A stretch of DNA of 64,000 bases from positions 1 through 64,000 of the forward strand of contig DATNQN010000091.1 of assembly GCA_036703985.1 (NCBI GenBank), in the 5' to 3' direction. Positions within the stretch are counted from its first letter, which is position 1. Each line of letters opens with the position of its first letter. Below are positions 25,145 to 30,891 of this stretch, in pieces. Under the pieces are notes generated by a model. That model was not told the origin of the DNA. It saw only the letters and a list, made by a program, of their open reading frames with translations, and did no database searches. The position numbers and the translations under genes are program-made. The stretch is from Leptolyngbyaceae cyanobacterium. Its GTDB lineage: Bacteria; Cyanobacteriota; Cyanobacteriia; Cyanobacteriales; Aerosakkonemataceae.

Positions 25145-25333
25145 TCAGTGAAGGTCTCGCTTGCAAATTTCTGTCATTCCTGATTAATCATTTGCTTTTC
25201 ACAAATAACTAATCGAAAGAGCTAAACTTGTCATCTGAACCAGGCCGATCGCCAGTATGTTGATTCAGATGGGCTAGCAAAATTCGTCAGGTGCAACTAT
25301 AGAGATTTGCTAGCAGCTACTCCCCTTCTTATA
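25145..25333 (-). promoter_or_regulatory. yybP-ykoY manganese riboswitch
   Basis: Read on the minus strand the element begins GAAGGGGAGTAGC and ends GCGAGACCTTC, both matching the ends of the yybP-ykoY aptamer consensus. P1 pairs GAAGG (25324-25328) with CCTTC (25150-25154). A P2 stem pairs GCTAGCAAA with TTTGCTAGC, and a P3 stem pairs ATCTGAA with TTCAGAT and encloses the conserved CATACT loop. The class senses Mn2+ and switches on exporter genes. Downstream (25083-25126), the segments AGCTTGGTGAA and TTCATCAAGCT can form a hairpin near the start codon, a likely expression platform. Confidence 0.85.
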
Positions 25334-25339
25334 TAAGTA

Positions 25340-25369
25340 ATTATACATCTATCTTGTGGGTGAGGGCAA
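25340..25369 (-). promoter_or_regulatory. Candidate promoter of riboswitch-exporter transcript
   Basis: On the minus strand, TTGCCC (25364-25369) and TATAAT (25340-25345) are separated by 18 bases. The -10 box matches the consensus perfectly, and transcription would start at about 25333, exactly where the riboswitch begins. The match is by eye only. Confidence 0.55.
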
Positions 25370-25617
25370 GGGGTATTTTTTTCATTATTGATTCATTTTT
25401 TACAGGAATAATGCAGTTATAGCTTAGTGACGACTGCTGGGGACTAGGTGCGATCGGCCCAACCCAGTTGTTAAAAAATATTGATAAGCTATGGAGTGAG
25501 GCAGTAGATAAGCGGATAATTGCTTATCCAGTATAAATGCGATCGATGTGATGATAGCGGATATTTTATCAATTCCAAAAGATAATTGTGATTTGCTGTA
25601 GCAAGTTACCCAGATTT

Positions 25618-25652
25618 GCAATTTGTGCAACAAGCTGCTGCACAAATTTTTT
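25618..25652 (+). terminator. Hairpin GCAATTTGTGCA...TGCACAAATT with T-run
   Basis: Arms AATTTGTGCA (25620-25629) and TGCACAAATT (25639-25648) are perfect complements, followed by a run of six T (25647-25652). The same GCAATTTGTGCAA core recurs in a longer palindrome at 29473-29509, at the other end of the restriction enzyme locus. It may be a terminator, or an end sequence of the accessory island. The rest of 25370-25723 has no gene. Confidence 0.5.
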
Positions 25653-25723
25653 ACACATCAGTAGCATCATTTTTAACTAAAACTTAATAATTTTGAAAAC
25701 CCTACAACCTGGAACCTGATTTA

Positions 25724-27577
25724 ATGCCATTTATCTCTTTTGAGACTTATCTCAAATCGATTCAAAGAAATCTACAAAAAGGCAGTGAGCGAAGTCATTA
25801 TCCAGCCTTAAAAGATTTACTTGACGATCCCGGTAAAGGGATTGATGCAGTGATTGAAGAAAAGGGAAATAAGGCAGGAATACCAGATTTTACAGTAAAG
25901 CGACGGGAGTTACTGGTAGGTTATGTAGAAGCTAAGGATGTTGGGCTAGATTTGGATGGGATTGAAAAAACGGAGCAGCTAAAACGCTACTTAGAGGCGT
26001 TTCCTAATCTAATATTAACTAATTATCTAGAGTTCCGTTGGTATGTAAATGGAAAGCGCAGGCAGAAAGAAATTTTAGCAGATCTGAATGGGGATAAACT
26101 TCAGATAAAAAATACCGATAAGATTGCTGCACTGTTGGAGCAATTTCTCAACTATACAGGCGAAATTATCAGCAGTCCTGAAGATTTGGCTCAACAGATG
26201 GCGAGGTTAACAAAAGCAATTCGGTTAGCCATAGAAACTGCGCTGAGTTTAGAAGCGAATGATGGTGAATTGCATCAATTGAGACAGGGATTTAGTGAGG
26301 TATTACTACCAGATATTAATGATTCTGACTTTGCCGATATGTATGCCCAAACTATATCTTATGGTTTGTTTACAGCTAGAGTCGGTCATGCTCAAAATCC
26401 AGGGAACGAACAATTTACTCGTCGCACTGCTGGTACTTATATTCCGGCAACTAATCCATTTTTGAAGCGATTATTTAATACAATCGTTGAAACGGATGCC
26501 ATTAGCCAGATTGATTGGGCAATTGATGATTTAGTGCAATTATTGTCTCAGGTAGACATGGGCAATATTCTGGAAAACTTTGGGCGGCGTACCCGTCAAG
26601 AAGATCCAGTTGTGCATTTTTATGAGACATTTTTGGCGGCGTATAATGCGGCATTAAGGAAAAGTCGAGGCGTGTATTATACACCGGAACCAGTGGTATC
26701 ATTTATCGTGCGATCGATCGATGCAATTCTCAAAGATCGGTTTGATTTGCCGTTGGGATTGGCAGATAATGCTAAAGATCCGGTGACGCAAAAGCCGCGA
26801 GTCCAAATTCTCGATCCCGCAACGGGAACGGGTACATTTTTATATGAAGTAATCAAGCAAATTTATCGCAATTTAGAAGAAATTGGCATGGCGAATCAGT
26901 GGGATAGCTATGTACGAGAAAATTTGCTAAATAGGTTATTTGGTTTTGAGTTATTGATGGCTCCTTATGCTATTGCTCACCTCAAATTGGGTTTGCAACT
27001 GCAAGAACTTGGTTATCAATTTACAGGAAAACAGAGGTTAGGGATTTATCTTACTAATACGTTGGATGAAGCATTGAAAAAATCGGAAATTTTGTTTGGT
27101 CAATTTGTAGCAGAGGAGGCTAATCAAGCTTCGACAATTAAAAGGGATGTCCCTGTAATGGTAGTATTAGGTAATCCACCATATTCGGGACATTCTGCAA
27201 ATAAAAGCGAATGGATTGCTGGTTTAGTGCAAGATTATTATTATGTGGATGGTTTGCCATTGGGAGAACGTAATCCTAAATGGTTACAAGATGACTATGT
27301 AAAATTTATCCGGTTTGGACAGTGGCGAATAGACAAAACGGGTTCCGGTATTTTGGCATTTATTACTAATCATGGATATCTCGATAATCCAACTTTTAGA
27401 GGTATGCGCCAGAGTCTTGAGAAGACTTTTGATGAAATTTATGTAATGGATTTACATGGAAATAGTAAGAAAAAAGAAGTTACTCCCGATGGTTCACCTG
27501 ATAAAAATGTGTTTGATATTCAGCAAGGTGTAGCAGTTGCTATTATGGTTAAATATCCCCAGGAGAAAGTAACATGA
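25724..27577 (+). CDS. Type ISP/IIG restriction-modification enzyme, N-terminal half (nuclease + methylase)
   Basis: 617-residue N-terminal part of a single-chain restriction-methylation enzyme. An Mrr-like nuclease domain comes first (D55 in GIPDF, then E69 and K71 in EAKD, the PD-ExK pattern). A helical linker follows, then an N6-adenine methyltransferase with motif I DPATGTG (from residue 364) and motif IV NPPY (from 484). The protein stops just after QQGVAVAIMVK, where intact family members continue into the target-recognition domain. That domain is found in the gene at 28227-29474; together the parts total 1032 residues, the normal length. The TGA overlaps the hicB start (ATGA). No helicase domain is seen, so IIG-like is also acceptable. 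Confidence 0.9.
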   Translation: MPFISFETYLKSIQRNLQKGSERSHYPALKDLLDDPGKGIDAVIEEKGNKAGIPDFTVKRRELLVGYVEAKDVGLDLDGIEKTEQLKRYLEAFPNLILTNYLEFRWYVNGKRRQKEILADLNGDKLQIKNTDKIAALLEQFLNYTGEIISSPEDLAQQMARLTKAIRLAIETALSLEANDGELHQLRQGFSEVLLPDINDSDFADMYAQTISYGLFTARVGHAQNPGNEQFTRRTAGTYIPATNPFLKRLFNTIVETDAISQIDWAIDDLVQLLSQVDMGNILENFGRRTRQEDPVVHFYETFLAAYNAALRKSRGVYYTPEPVVSFIVRSIDAILKDRFDLPLGLADNAKDPVTQKPRVQILDPATGTGTFLYEVIKQIYRNLEEIGMANQWDSYVRENLLNRLFGFELLMAPYAIAHLKLGLQLQELGYQFTGKQRLGIYLTNTLDEALKKSEILFGQFVAEEANQASTIKRDVPVMVVLGNPPYSGHSANKSEWIAGLVQDYYYVDGLPLGERNPKWLQDDYVKFIRFGQWRIDKTGSGILAFITNHGYLDNPTFRGMRQSLEKTFDEIYVMDLHGNSKKKEVTPDGSPDKNVFDIQQGVAVAIMVKYPQEKVT

Positions 27578-27777
27578 AATGGCGTGTTATTCTTGAACCC
27601 GATCGAGAAACGGGTGATTGGGCAGTTTGGTGTCCAGAGTTACCTGGTTGCGTTTCAGCAGGAGAAACAGAAGAAGAAGCTTTAGAAAATATCCGTGAGG
27701 CGATCGCACTTTATCTTGAACCCGATCCGATCGTATTAAAAGAAGGAACAATTTTGCGGGAGGTTTCAGTTAAATGA
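27574..27777 (+). CDS. hicB: HicB-like antitoxin 1
   Basis: 67-residue HicB-family antitoxin with the partial RNase H-like fold: MKWRVILEPDRETGDWAVWCPELPG, then the classic CVSAGETEEEALENIREAI. It would bind and inhibit the HicA toxin encoded next. The start overlaps the stop of the restriction enzyme half (ATGA), with AGGAG at 27561-27565 as ribosome-binding site. The order hicB-hicA (antitoxin first) is common. It has no added DNA-binding domain, so autoregulation would need another protein. Confidence 0.9.
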   Translation: MKWRVILEPDRETGDWAVWCPELPGCVSAGETEEEALENIREAIALYLEPDPIVLKEGTILREVSVK

Positions 27778-27998
27778 CTCGTACCCGACGCATGAACGCA
27801 GATGAAGTTGAACGTATTTTGGAGCGTTATGGGTTTGAGTTAGTTTCGCAAAAAGGGAGTCATCGTAAGTGGCGAAATCTCGATCGTCAGATCCAAGCGA
27901 TCGTCCCTTATCACAAAGGGCGGGATCTACCAATAGGAACGCTACGCAATATTATGGTAAGTGCCGACATTCCAGAAACTGAATGGAAAACTGAGTAA
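27774..27998 (+). CDS. hicA: HicA-like toxin 1 (mRNA interferase)
   Basis: 74-residue HicA family toxin with a double-stranded RNA-binding-like fold that cuts mRNA. The catalytic His is in KGSHRKWRN, and the end IPYHKGRDLPIGTLRNI-type segment (here IVPYHKGRDLPIGTL) is diagnostic. The start overlaps the hicB stop (ATGA), so antitoxin and toxin are coupled. It sits between the two halves of the restriction enzyme. No inactivating change is visible. Confidence 0.92.
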   Translation: MTRTRRMNADEVERILERYGFELVSQKGSHRKWRNLDRQIQAIVPYHKGRDLPIGTLRNIMVSADIPETEWKTE

Positions 27999-28023
27999 AA
28001 TAATATCCCAAAGAGAAAGCAGT

Positions 28024-28227
28024 ATGATACGAACCCAAAAATTTACAGCAATTATTGAGCGTGAAGGCGATGGTTATGTAGCTTTATGTCCAGAACTAGA
28101 TATTGTTAGCCAAGGTGATTCTAGGGAAGAAGCAAGAAATAATTTAATTGAAGCTTTAGAATTATTTTTTGAAGTTGCTGATTTTTCAGAAGTACTAAAG
28201 CGCTGTTATATTTTTGAGGTGATCTAA
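28024..28227 (+). CDS. Orphan HicB-like protein
   Basis: 67-residue HicB-family domain: MIRTQKFTAIIEREGDGYVALCPEL, then QGDSREEARNNLIEAL. No HicA partner follows; instead its stop overlaps the start of the restriction enzyme C-terminal half (TAATG). The frame is open upstream to 27961, but ATG 28024 starts the conserved fold. It could be a spare antitoxin for either HicA or may have lost its toxin when the locus was rearranged. Confidence 0.85.
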   Translation: MIRTQKFTAIIEREGDGYVALCPELDIVSQGDSREEARNNLIEALELFFEVADFSEVLKRCYIFEVI

Positions 28228-29474
28228 TGGCAAAAATTTATCACGCTCATCTCTGGGGTTCGCGGGAAGATAAGTATCACTATCTTCAAGAACATGATAT
28301 AAATTCGGTTGAATGGACAGAAATTTTTCCCAATTCGCCGTTTTATCTTTTTATTCCTCAAAGTACTGATTGCAGAGCAGAGTATGAACAGGGATGGAAA
28401 ATTACTGATATTATGCCTGTTAATTCAACAGGAGTCAAAACTCATCGCGATCATTTTGTTTTTGATTTTGATTTATCAGAACTACGCAAACGTATAGAAA
28501 AATTTAGAGACTTAAGCATTACAGATGAAGAAATTAGCAATATTTATGAAATTCAGGATACAAGAGATTGGAAATTAAGCCAAAAGCGACGTTCTCTTAA
28601 GTCAAATAAAGATTGGGAAAAATATTTTACACAATGTCTTTATCGTCCGTTTGATTGGAGAGCTTATTATCACCATGAGGATGTAGTTGAACTTCCAAGA
28701 AATGAAGTCATGAGAAATTTTTTACAAACCAATAATTTAGGGTTCATTACATCTCGTAATGTTGAAATAGAAAGAATCTACGACCAAGTATTATGTACAT
28801 CTAATTTAATTAATAATCATACTTTATGTCTTAAAGAAGTTAATTATGTTTTTCCTCTTTACCTTTATCCGGATCTTGATAATCCACAGGGTTCTCTCTT
28901 TGCAAGCGGTAAAATTGAAATAAATATATCTCAAAAATTTATCAATTCAATTCAACAAAAATTAGAATACATACCCACACCAGAAGCAATTTTTTACTAC
29001 ATCTACGCCATATTCCACAGTCCCACTTATCGTCAACGCTACGCCGAATTTCTCAAAATAGATTTTCCTCGTGTACCTCTCACTAGCAACGATAAACTAT
29101 TCAAAGACTTAGGCGAAAAAGGTCAGGAATTAGTAGAACTGCACTTGATGAAATCGAAAAAACTCAACAAGCTAATTACTAAAGTAGGCGGTGATGGCGA
29201 TAATACCGTTACCGAAGTTACCTACAAACTAACAGAACAGCGAGTTTATATCAATAAAAACCGTTATTTTGAAGGAATTGCACCAGAAGTTTGGGAATTC
29301 AAGATTGGCGGTTATCAGGTTTTAGACAAATGGCTAAAAGACCGCAAAAAAGCTAACCGAAGTTTATCTTTTGATGATGTGCTGCACTATCAAAAAGTAG
29401 TAGTTGCCTTGAAAGAAACCATGCAACTGATGACAGAGATCGATCGCATCATTCCCGGTTTTCCAATTGAATAA
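28227..29474 (+). CDS. Type ISP/IIG restriction-modification enzyme, C-terminal half (target recognition)
   Basis: 415-residue protein that matches the C-terminal part of type ISP/IIG enzymes: an entry segment (KIYHAHLWGSREDKYHYLQ, then PNSPFYLFIP) that normally follows the methylase domain without a break, then a target-recognition region ending with APEVWEFKIGGYQVLDKWLKDR and a helical end. It has its own strong ribosome-binding site, GAGGTGAT (28216-28223). Its ATG overlaps the orphan hicB stop. It may pair with the N-terminal half to give a working enzyme in two chains. It contains no nuclease or methylase motif of its own. Confidence 0.88.
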   Translation: MAKIYHAHLWGSREDKYHYLQEHDINSVEWTEIFPNSPFYLFIPQSTDCRAEYEQGWKITDIMPVNSTGVKTHRDHFVFDFDLSELRKRIEKFRDLSITDEEISNIYEIQDTRDWKLSQKRRSLKSNKDWEKYFTQCLYRPFDWRAYYHHEDVVELPRNEVMRNFLQTNNLGFITSRNVEIERIYDQVLCTSNLINNHTLCLKEVNYVFPLYLYPDLDNPQGSLFASGKIEINISQKFINSIQQKLEYIPTPEAIFYYIYAIFHSPTYRQRYAEFLKIDFPRVPLTSNDKLFKDLGEKGQELVELHLMKSKKLNKLITKVGGDGDNTVTEVTYKLTEQRVYINKNRYFEGIAPEVWEFKIGGYQVLDKWLKDRKKANRSLSFDDVLHYQKVVVALKETMQLMTEIDRIIPGFPIE

Positions 29475-29509
29475 GCAATTTGTGCAAGCACTTCTTGCAC
29501 AAATTGCTT
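29473..29509. repeat. Perfect 16-bp palindrome at the end of the restriction enzyme locus
   Basis: Arms AAGCAATTTGTGCAAG (29473-29488) and its complement (29494-29509) with a 5-base loop. It begins within the stop codon of the restriction enzyme C-half. The core GCAATTTGTGCAA also occurs in the hairpin at 25618-25652 on the other side of the locus. No T-run follows on the plus strand, so it may stabilise or end the mRNA only weakly. Confidence 0.6.
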
Positions 29510-29577
29510 AGCTTCTAAATTGATAATGATGATAACCAAATTTAATCGTGCTGTTTTTTGTAAAAAAGATTAAGTAA

Positions 29578-29817
29578 ATGCAAACGCTAATTAGGCTCAA
29601 AATTGAAAAATTTATTGAAGATGGACAAGTATATTTTGTGGCTACCAGTGATGATTTACAAGGTTTAGTCGCTGAAGGAAAAACAGTACAGGAAGCCATA
29701 GAAATTGCTGAAGATGTAGCTAAAGTTCTGCTAGATTTAGAAAAAGAAAATAATCAAGACTTTCAATTACAAGATTTGCCTTCTCAGTTTGAATATCCTC
29801 TAATTATGGAGGTATAA
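29578..29817 (+). CDS. HicB-like antitoxin 2 (DUF1902-like)
   Basis: 79-residue HicB-type protein: IRLKIEKFIEDGQVYFVATSDDLQGLVAEGKTVQEAIEIAEDVAKVLL. The pattern matches the DUF1902 variant of the HicB fold. Its TAA overlaps the next ATG by one base (TAATG), coupling it to a HicA-type toxin. It forms a second, separate toxin-antitoxin pair 104 bases after the restriction enzyme locus. Confidence 0.85.
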   Translation: MQTLIRLKIEKFIEDGQVYFVATSDDLQGLVAEGKTVQEAIEIAEDVAKVLLDLEKENNQDFQLQDLPSQFEYPLIMEV

Positions 29818-30038
29818 TGGGAAGATTAGCAGGATTTTCTTATCGAGAAGTCACTCATAAGCTAGGAAAACTAGGTTTTGTATTCTATCGTGCAGCAAAA
29901 GGAGATCACGAAATTTGGTTTAATCCAGTAACAAATCTAAAAACAACTATTCCTCATCATCGTGAAATCAAGGAAGGAACACTTAGAAATATTTTAAAGC
30001 AAGCCCAAGTTGATGTTGATGTTTTTATTGATGTTTAA
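29817..30038 (+). CDS. HicA-like toxin 2
   Basis: 73-residue HicA-family toxin. The catalytic His is in KGDHEIWFN, followed by TTIPHHREIKEGTLRNILKQA, the standard C-terminal motif. Start coupled to antitoxin 2. It differs strongly in sequence from HicA 1 (27774-27998), so the two modules were probably acquired separately rather than by local duplication. Confidence 0.88.
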   Translation: MGRLAGFSYREVTHKLGKLGFVFYRAAKGDHEIWFNPVTNLKTTIPHHREIKEGTLRNILKQAQVDVDVFIDV

Positions 30039-30083
30039 TTCTTTTAACTTGATTAGACAGTCGATATATCTAACTAGTAGTTC

Positions 30084-30135
30084 TTCAGAAGCCAGAATCA
30101 TTTTGCTACCCGACTAGGAGATTCTGACTTCTGAA
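30084..30135. terminator. Inverted repeat between convergent genes
   Basis: Arms 30084-30099 (TTCAGAAGCCAGAATC) and 30120-30135 pair at 15 of 16 positions. It lies between hicA 2 and the convergent PPC gene and belongs to the same TCAGAATTC repeat family as the structure at 2044-2167. Probable terminator for one or both genes, inferred. Confidence 0.4.
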
Positions 30136-30153
30136 TACACCCTTATAGAAACC

Positions 30154-30891
30154 TTATGATAGCGCGATTAGGCTTAGGTTATAGGATGTACTGCCACTGT
30201 ATTGAAAAACTTGTATGAAGTAATCCCCAGCATCCAAAGTAGTATTTATCTGTTCCGGAGAAGTTCCACTTAAAGCAGAACTGGCAATTCGTTCGCCTGC
30301 ATCAACTACACCATTGCCGTTGAAATCTCTAATTAGCCGGATATCAGCATCAGCACTTAAACCAGTCAAGGATGCGGTAAAAGCAACATCGTCAGTATTT
30401 AAGTTAAATTTGTAGGTATCAACAGTGTCTTGGTTGCTTATATAATCAGTAAAAGTTGCGTAAGCTTGAGAATTTAGATTACCAACGTTTATTTCTGTTG
30501 GCAGCAAATTACTAGGTGAACCTGCTCCGGTGGCTGATAAACTTATTTTGTAATCAACTAAACTCCCAGCACCATAAGTTACTTTGGCAAAGTAAGTACC
30601 CGCTGCTTGAGAGCGATAATTAATCAAGGCATCATCTTCGATATCTCCGCCACTATCGAAGGTTCCTACTATTCTTTGATCGGTTGAATCTAATACACCA
30701 TTATTATTGGTATCCCTAAACAGGGAAAGCGCAGCTTGTTCGGTTCCCGTGATACCAGTGAGAGCTATGTTAATGTTTCTCGTGCTGCCTAAAGTAAATT
30801 GGAAGATATCTGTATTATTTACACCACTGCTTACCGTATCTGTGCGAGTTTGGGGAGTAGTACCTAAAGAACCGAGATTGTAGGTTGTCAT
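30154..30891 (-). CDS. PPC-repeat extracellular protein with calcium-type loops
   Basis: 245-residue protein made of two PPC-like (bacterial pre-peptidase C-terminal) beta-sandwich repeats. The first is about residues 15-120 (DIFQFTLGSTRNINIALTG, ending AGTYFAKVTYG), the second about 133-245 (DTYKFNLNTDDVAFTASLTGL, ending AGDYFIQVFQYSGSTSYNLSL). Each repeat holds an Asp/Asn-rich loop: DTNNNGVLDSTD and DFNGNGVVDAGE, similar to dockerin or EF-hand calcium loops. No N-terminal signal peptide is present; export by a type I system is possible but no signal is clear. No catalytic domain is attached, which is unusual since PPC domains normally accompany peptidases. Confidence 0.82.
   Translation of the reverse strand: MTTYNLGSLGTTPQTRTDTVSSGVNNTDIFQFTLGSTRNINIALTGITGTEQAALSLFRDTNNNGVLDSTDQRIVGTFDSGGDIEDDALINYRSQAAGTYFAKVTYGAGSLVDYKISLSATGAGSPSNLLPTEINVGNLNSQAYATFTDYISNQDTVDTYKFNLNTDDVAFTASLTGLSADADIRLIRDFNGNGVVDAGERIASSALSGTSPEQINTTLDAGDYFIQVFQYSGSTSYNLSLIALS

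Follow-up and report, generated by a model that had tools for sequence, protein, structure and literature searches.

Why would a restriction-modification (R-M) enzyme that is a single chain elsewhere be encoded as two halves, with toxin–antitoxin (TA) genes between them? The question is raised by positions 25724–29474 of a 64 000 nt stretch of a Leptolyngbyaceae cyanobacterium genome (the window; assembly GCA_036703985.1, contig DATNQN010000091.1, positions 1–64 000 of the forward strand), where genes for a nuclease–methyltransferase (the N-half) and a target-recognition protein (the C-half) flank three Hic-type ORFs. Our comparison of related loci (numbered L; genomes are numbered G) suggests that the arrangement probably represents a two-subunit type IIG-like enzyme with an exchangeable recognition subunit, whose gene junction has repeatedly been colonized by TA modules via recombination at the N-tail and C-start. 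The split itself is, as judged from these comparisons, real, old and maintained. A first-pass annotation of the window had suggested that loss of the locus might be punished; what the comparisons speak to more directly is exchange of the recognition half, which that annotation did not consider.

A restriction-modification enzyme divided at its domain linker

The N-half (617 aa; 25724..27577, on the plus strand like all genes of the locus) matched N6_Mtase (PF02384, 1.1e-12) and MmeI_Mtase, and the C-half (415 aa; 28227..29474) matched PF18135 (Type_ISP_C, 3.2e-96), the sole Pfam domain found in it. The two ORFs lie 649 bp apart and do not form the single polypeptide of a type IIG enzyme. The C-half is a gene in its own right, with its own start and a Shine–Dalgarno-like site (GAGGTGAT, 28216..28223), as expected of a separate specificity subunit. 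The gap contains hicB1 (67 aa; 27574..27777; HicB_lk_antitox, PF15919, 2.1e-10) and hicA1 (74 aa; 27774..27998; HicA_toxin, PF07927, 4.8e-18), both above the Pfam cut-off and adjoining one another as in a HicBA module, followed by hicB' (28024..28227), which matched the HicB family weakly, below cut-off. The mechanical ORF of hicB' opens at 27961, and the ATG at 28024 agrees with the family. The ORF coordinates, the ATGA overlaps of N-half with hicB1 and of hicB1 with hicA1, the TAATG overlap of hicB' with the C-half, the 25-base gap between hicA1 and hicB' (the sole non-overlapping junction) and the ribosome site of the C-half were all as the first-pass annotation had given them. Promoter-like and terminator-like sites in 25300–30200 were no commoner than in shuffled sequence.

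Across ten N-halves, D55 was invariant and E69, A70 and K71 were conserved in at least 90%; we take this PD...EAK signature (25886..25936) to be a PD-(D/E)XK nuclease motif. DPATGTGTFL (residues 364–373; 26813..26842) was invariant or nearly so and NPPY (residues 484–487; 27173..27184) was invariant, and these presumably correspond to methyltransferase motifs I and IV. Taken together, Pfam, PADLOC and the motif columns gave the domain content of a type IIG enzyme: a nuclease, a gamma-type adenine methylase and a recognition domain, with no ATP-dependent motor. The PADLOC type IIG model PDLC03610 (1096 positions) spanned the N-half at 3–495 and the C-half at 658–1075. The relatives with solved structures were LlaBIII, LlaGI and a 1029-residue adenine methyltransferase (7lo5), single-chain IIG or type ISP enzymes whose homologous methylase and recognition domains occur in the same order; LlaGI and LlaBIII are single chains of 1406 and 1578 residues, whereas the window locus comprises two genes. 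Type ISP enzymes carry an ATP-dependent motor (PMC6158711, in the text available). The Pfam scan found no helicase domain in the locus proteins, and the N-half of 617 aa does not include the SF2 helicase/translocase of type ISP, so the locus is IIG-like rather than true type ISP.

The first-pass annotation held that the two halves together equal a normal enzyme with nothing lost at the break, and comparison with intact homologues bore this out. In 36 intact homologues of 997–1142 aa (from 40 controls; L162–L165 were dropped as distant), the linker between the methylase and recognition domains is 3–20 residues long and lies at the position of the window's break, which indicates that no residues were lost. 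The window N-half ends ...GVAVAIMVKYPQEKVT and the C-half begins MAKIYHAHLWG, and a fused example (L138) reads AIGIFIKYQNSQQDVATVYHADLWG across the junction. In L172 (Microcoleus sp. CAN_BIN18), a close relative, the two parts are fused through a 5-residue linker and are 87% (N) and 65% (C) identical to those of the window; two tandem DUF433/DUF5615-type pairs (L172 3801–5265) stand 20 bp after this intact gene. An assembly error at the junctions, which the first-pass annotation had named as a concern, is ruled out because the same N–gap–C order with Hic genes in the gap recurs in independent assemblies, those of Planktothricoides sp. SR001 (L173) and Argonema antarcticum A004/B2 (L170) being examples.

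Constraint on the N-half and exchange within the C-half

To judge from dN/dS values of 0.03–0.08 between the window and seven relatives (dS being saturated for four), the N-half is under strong purifying selection. The corresponding values for the C-half were 0.11–0.34. By alignment, the ends of the C-half are conserved and its centre is exchanged between closely related strains, in the manner of an HsdS specificity subunit. In the swapped pairs, namely L044/L045 (N-halves 98.4% identical), L043/L044 (N-halves 95%) and the two C genes of G045, 30-column windows were mostly 86–100% identical at the ends of the C-half and mostly 7–46% identical in the centre (residues ~60–240; 28404..28946 in the window). 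The window and L043 have a common centre, and their C-halves are 91% identical overall.

This pattern of conserved flanks and a swapped recognition centre matches that of S genes in Helicobacter pylori, described for type I systems and also for a type IIG system (PMC3077401, in the text available). The H. pylori subunits are type I-like with two recognition domains, unlike the C-half with its single hypervariable block, and the word toxin is absent from the text of PMC3077401. A separate specificity subunit beside a nuclease–methylase subunit also has a precedent in the BcgI group of type IIG/IIB enzymes, in which a fused RM subunit and a separate S subunit are both needed for activity, indicating that such a division of labour is workable (PMC3874165, in the text available). 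BcgI S is type I-like with tandem recognition domains, whereas the window C-half is type ISP-like (PF18135), and the available text of PMC3874165 does not mention TA genes in the operon.

More than one C gene may accompany a single N-half. In L047 (Planktothricoides sp. SR001, G045:C112), one N-half lies between two full C-halves with differing centres, a candidate for an enzyme with two specificities. Two C genes with one N are also found in L048, which is broken, and an extra C gene stands beside a fused gene in L051 and L052. The 4.8 Mb genome G015 contains 32 pieces matching the C domain; one 20 kb stretch (L052 1–20000) holds a split N–TA–C locus and, besides it, a fused gene, a spare C and several further TA-like pairs.

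Recurrence of the split locus in cyanobacteria

N- and C-halves were first compared in 60 related genomes, and the survey was extended to the class, where PF18135 was found in at least 89 of 290 genomes and many matches were separate frames of 400–490 aa. Among 40 separate-frame candidates fetched, an N-half, occasionally only a fragment of one, stands upstream in 37; the other three were dropped, L112 because it is not split and L098 and L101 because they are contig ends. Among the survey matches listed, those left unfetched were short frames, such as G193 and G285:C46, and partial matches. The window, 14 loci from relatives and these 37 make up the 52 N–gap–C loci analysed here. Gap length has a median of 720 bp (range 9–2138), and most N-halves end near model position 621–625 while most C-halves start near position 1–2, that is, at the linker (exceptions include L102 and L106). 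By our cut-offs, both halves are full length in one frame in 33 loci.

The first-pass annotation had suggested looking for the same five-gene order in cyanobacterial genomes; the N–TA–C order recurs widely there, with varied TA families. The layout, thought at first to have no precedent, is one of many variants among the 52 loci. A second, distant split system lies in the window's own genome (G000:C131; L053 6347–10332), with an N-half of 590 aa, a C-half of 446 aa and an 872 bp gap holding a HicB-like ORF, a RelB-like ORF and a RelE-like fragment. In L108 (9 bp) and L050 (179 bp) the gap is nearly empty and has no TA, and in L128 and L129 it has only an antitoxin-like ORF. In Chrysosporum bergii (L174 7842–7857), N and C are adjacent genes 14 bp apart with no TA between them. 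The halves are kept in these loci, showing that they persist without a working TA between them.

TA modules between the two halves

Gap ORFs were called on the plus strand at a minimum of 38 aa, and flank ORFs on both strands at a minimum of 45 aa within 1.5 kb. The 146 plus-strand gap ORFs fell into 28 clusters, and 30 sequences drawn from 26 of these were scanned with Pfam; clusters 6, 9 and 27 (12 ORFs), without a Pfam match, were counted as TA from context. The families comprised DUF2281 with PIN, HicA, DUF433 with DUF5615, ParE, PemK, DUF4258 with a sub-threshold MqsA match, DUF6883 with DUF4926, a nucleotidyltransferase (MNT) with HepT, and XisH/XisI. We take DUF2281, DUF433, DUF5615, DUF4258, DUF4926, DUF6883 and XisHI to be TA components. 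XisH/XisI-type ORFs were located, like other TA pairs, in or beside L090 (5431–6149), L092 (upstream) and L094 (downstream). A specific partnership between HicBA and the enzyme was rejected, given that other TA families fill the same gap.

TA-type ORFs were present in the gap of 49 of the 52 loci, a count that is partly circular since the TA models were built from gap ORFs. An ORF of one of seven toxin families (HicA, PIN, DUF5615, ParE, DUF4258, HepT or PemK; fragments included) was present in 45 of the 52. Upstream of the N-half, where flank sequence sufficed for 45 loci, the gap-built models, which yield lower bounds in flanks, found TA ORFs in three (L045, L058 and L092). Checking these upstream flanks with Pfam and by eye raised the counts to at least 8/45 for TA-type ORFs and about 5/45 for toxin families (L045, L054, L055, L058 and L128). 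The additions were a TacA–acetyltransferase pair (L128), PIN pairs (L054 and L055) and HicB-type ORFs (L043 and L044); a HEPN match below cut-off upstream of L100 was left uncounted as toxin-family. The gap is the strongest, but not the sole, site of TA genes.

The gap TA genes follow the direction of the operon: none of 119 ORFs on the minus strand of the gaps was TA-like. The first gap ORF opens close to the N stop (within 20 bp) in 46 of 50 loci, with 21 overlaps, 14 of them of four bases; the last one closes equally near the C start in 32 of 50, again with 21 overlaps. A 10 bp overlap between VapC and the C-half occurs in eight loci.

Deletion scars and turnover at the junction

The proposal that hicB-hicA-hicB' forms a designed unit was not supported by comparison with relatives, which carry other TA families in the gap or, in a few cases, none. 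By alignment, hicB' is the deletion scar of a second hicBA pair: window positions 28004–28204 aligned at 84% to hicB2 of G009 (L045), after which the alignment skips 241 bp and resumes 36 bp before and at the C-half start (89%). The deletion point thus lies at ~28204/28205, and hicB' is a truncated hicB2 whose toxin, hicA', has been deleted; the Shine–Dalgarno-like site of the C-half falls inside the former hicA' tail. A role for hicB' as a functional third gene was rejected on the same alignment. G009 and G025 (L048) retain hicA' at the deletion site. Conversely, G009 is without hicA1, though at least 24 bp of its end remain. The alignments indicate that the window and G009 lost reciprocal toxins and that each retains one whole Hic pair in the gap.

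The 25-base gap before hicB' is itself informative. Positions 28002..28027 are a fossil copy of the last bases of the N-half, ending in ATGA directly before hicB', and 23 of 24 bases match the N end of L045. This suggests that hicB2 once overlapped an N stop as hicB1 does now, and L122 still carries hicB2 directly behind N. In the window hicA1 is intact, with dN/dS of 0.035 against L046 and 0.061 against L097 (dS saturated), and hicB1 gave 0.13–0.15 against four relatives. In L043 and L044 (G003 and G007) hicA1 has an in-frame stop, and other TA pairs persist in the gap; hicA1 dN/dS values for these two loci are invalid, as the in-frame stops shifted the codon mapping, and were not used.

Copies of a locus's own N-tail were found in the gap of 8 of 51 loci (the window, L043, L044, L045, L055, L057, L122 and, weakly, L047), and a control internal piece of N gave copies in none of the 51. 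Copies of the C-start were found in two of 51 (L055 and L125), against none for a control internal C piece. Translated searches added a C tail (L092) and further N tails (L090, L100 and L106). L148 has an intact gene followed by VapBC and then by a C-start remnant, and in L055 a C-start fossil precedes an N-tail fossil, as if a deletion had joined two N–TA–C units. As some TAs came with N-tail copies, these fossils suggest that recombination at the N end and the C start brought TAs in.

A tree of 83 N domains, 45 of them split and 38 intact, was built by a quick method, so that change counts are approximate; on it the split or intact label changes at least 11 times, at least eight of them forced by starred branches. 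The type of TA in the gap changes at least 19–20 times over the 45 split loci, against shuffle means of 27.6 and 26.4. That there are fewer changes than in the shuffles suggests that TAs are inherited for a time and then replaced.

A further Hic-type pair, hicB3 (29578..29817; DUF1902, 8.6e-6) and hicA3 (29817..30038; PF07927, 6.4e-17), lies directly downstream of the C-half. The window, G003, G007 and G009 have the chromosomal site in common; hicB3A3 is downstream of C in the window only, and in the other three genomes the pair, or its hicB part, sits upstream of N.

Distribution outside cyanobacteria

Named genomes were scanned with the N alignment and the best 80 loci were kept, 31 of them cyanobacterial and 49 from elsewhere. 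Within the 49, splits at the linker were seen in four of seven Planctomycetota loci. One of these, L201, has the order N–HicB–HicA–MNT–C, a plan like that of the window. L217 has N, DUF2281-like, ParE-like, MNT and HepT-like ORFs and then the contig end, with no C seen before it, and L193 has N, a small unmatched ORF overlapping N, other ORFs and a C start at the contig end. L242 (the same as L318) is a real split with a 150 bp gap and no TA. Beyond Planctomycetota, L230 (Acidobacteriota) is broken near the linker, and the rest of the 49 are intact, contig-cut or broken elsewhere.

When PF18135 was surveyed in 294 Planctomycetota, 398 Pseudomonadota and 251 Chloroflexota genomes, few separate C frames came up, and a universal layout was rejected on that basis. 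Among 12 regions fetched from these three samples there was no further split with TAs: L308, L309, L310, L312, L313, L315 and L317 run into contig ends, L307 and L316 look like frameshifts, and L318 is the TA-less split already described as L242. In the Chloroflexota sample, the methylase part of L314 (3693–8897) is broken away from the linker by a 410 aa ORF, possibly a transposase, and L311 (6530–7732) has a C-type domain without an N-half upstream, preceded by a gene that looks unrelated. Plasmid homologues compared by coordinates (Agrobacterium, Borrelia, Pseudomonas and others) were contiguous with one exception, NZ_CP121114.1 (Roseinatronobacter sp. S2), where the C-type match is found several kb upstream of the N-type one and not beside it, possibly another separate arrangement.

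Interpretation and alternative explanations

We propose that the N-half cuts and methylates DNA and that the separately translated C-half would act as its exchangeable recognition subunit, both being produced from one operon and presumably assembling in trans. As a separate subunit, the C-half can be replaced whole, together with TA genes, or in its centre only, through recombination at its conserved ends, and a strain might thereby change its DNA specificity with the catalytic half untouched. The junction is a point at which inserted genes disrupt neither subunit. There, TA pairs from many families have settled in operon direction, mostly coupled by short overlaps; they would probably persist by addiction, and would lose their toxin once another TA makes them redundant before being replaced in turn. 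The TAs may stabilize the locus, though the halves persist without them.

Several observations weigh against this model. TA ORFs were found downstream of the C-half in 18 of the 48 loci with sufficient sequence there, and beside intact genes in 7/36 upstream and 12/36 downstream, all counts from the gap-built models and thus lower bounds. Nineteen of the 52 loci are without a full-length N or C in one frame, because of contig ends, fragments or breakage (L048, L056, L057, L116 and L121 are broken examples), and the 52 are not independent, since related strains have TAs in common. In the scan of named genomes, only four of the 31 cyanobacterial loci kept are split (L170, L171, L173 and L174). 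The dN/dS of distant pairs relies on saturated dS, and AlphaFold predicted each half on its own poorly (mean pLDDT 59.9 and 48.8), the models being uninformative on assembly. In the broken L048 (9186–15061; G025), inserted ORFs interrupt the N-half, and two ORFs of the locus have a C-terminal sequence in common, as would be seen with a repeated mobile element.

A more specific form of the two-subunit model, which we put forward tentatively, is that TA and recognition-subunit genes together form cassettes dedicated to changing restriction specificity. A resident N-half would acquire an adjacent [N-tail]–TA–C unit by N-tail recombination; the TA would hinder reversal until methylation had caught up with the new sites, and deletion would then remove the older C or TA. 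Spare C genes, C-start and N-tail fossils, the VapC–C overlap and the planctomycete case are traces that such a process would be expected to leave, and the N-tail fossils led us to judge it somewhat likelier.

It is possible, though we hold it with no more conviction than the cassette proposal, that the TA acts as a guard, as the first-pass annotation had suggested, and is retained for protecting the enzyme: were the operon shut off, deleted or out-competed by an incoming allele, loss of the labile antitoxin would free the toxin to kill or arrest the cell, making the block hard to lose or swap. CreTA, an RNA-based TA that guards CRISPR-Cas and is regulated by Cas proteins, embodies the same idea of punishing the loss of a defence system, and differs in being RNA-based and Cas-regulated. 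The recurrent placement of TAs with short overlaps at both junctions, the similar case in L201, the conservation of hicA1 in the window, L046 and L097, and the reciprocal losses that left one whole Hic pair each in the window and G009 are all consistent with guarding. Yet hicA1 is interrupted in L043 and L044 (where other pairs persist), an antitoxin-like ORF is all that the gap of L128 and L129 has, L108, L050, L174 and L242 keep both halves with no TA, and the repeated changes of TA type across the 45 split loci argue against any specific partnership.

A little less probable is a neutral landing site, at which common mobile TAs survive because insertion is harmless, the split being a by-product with no role in specificity. 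Such a site would account for the many unrelated TA families, their frequent decay and turnover, and the TAs beside intact genes. It fits poorly with the far lower frequency of toxin-family ORFs directly upstream (about 5/45 against 45/52 in the gap), with split clades that are long-lived and show low N-half dN/dS, and with the two C genes accompanying one N in L047, which point to use in trans.

We consider it unlikely that the TAs provide a second line of defence, their toxins being released when a phage neutralizes the enzyme. The toxins of the gaps belong for the most part to families of known or presumed RNases, which would suit this role; seven or more toxin families, however, argue against specific contact with the enzyme, and some loci have no TA at all. 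The idea has a precedent in the proposal for PrrC with PrrI, and toxin genes inside R-M operons are known (PrrC/PrrI and HEPN proteins), recalling the MNT/HEPN pairs of some gaps here; in those operons whole R-M subunits flank the toxin, whereas here TAs lie between the halves of an elsewhere-single chain (PMC3710099, in the text available).

That the enzyme is a dead, decaying remnant is very improbable and was rejected for the window: some relatives are broken (L048, L056 and L057), but the window N and C are full length with intact motifs, dN/dS is low (0.03–0.08 for N and 0.11–0.34 for C), relatives have the same layout and the break recurs at the linker in many lineages. The locus does not match the decaying insertion that the first-pass annotation had set out as its alternative.

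Significance

No description of N–TA–C splitting was found in the full-text literature, a search that left most subscription papers and all preprints uncovered and is thus weak evidence of novelty. For annotation, the locus is a reminder that both halves are readily miscalled as broken genes. As a natural system it is of interest in that, in many lineages, a large restriction enzyme has been divided at a single linker and its recognition part appears to have become a swappable subunit, so that genome comparison may reveal how specificity evolves and methylation calling could test it. In cyanobacteria and in at least one planctomycete, TA modules with toxins of several families converge on one position in a defence operon, and these loci could be used to ask directly whether TAs act as guards of other defence genes or merely exploit safe sites.

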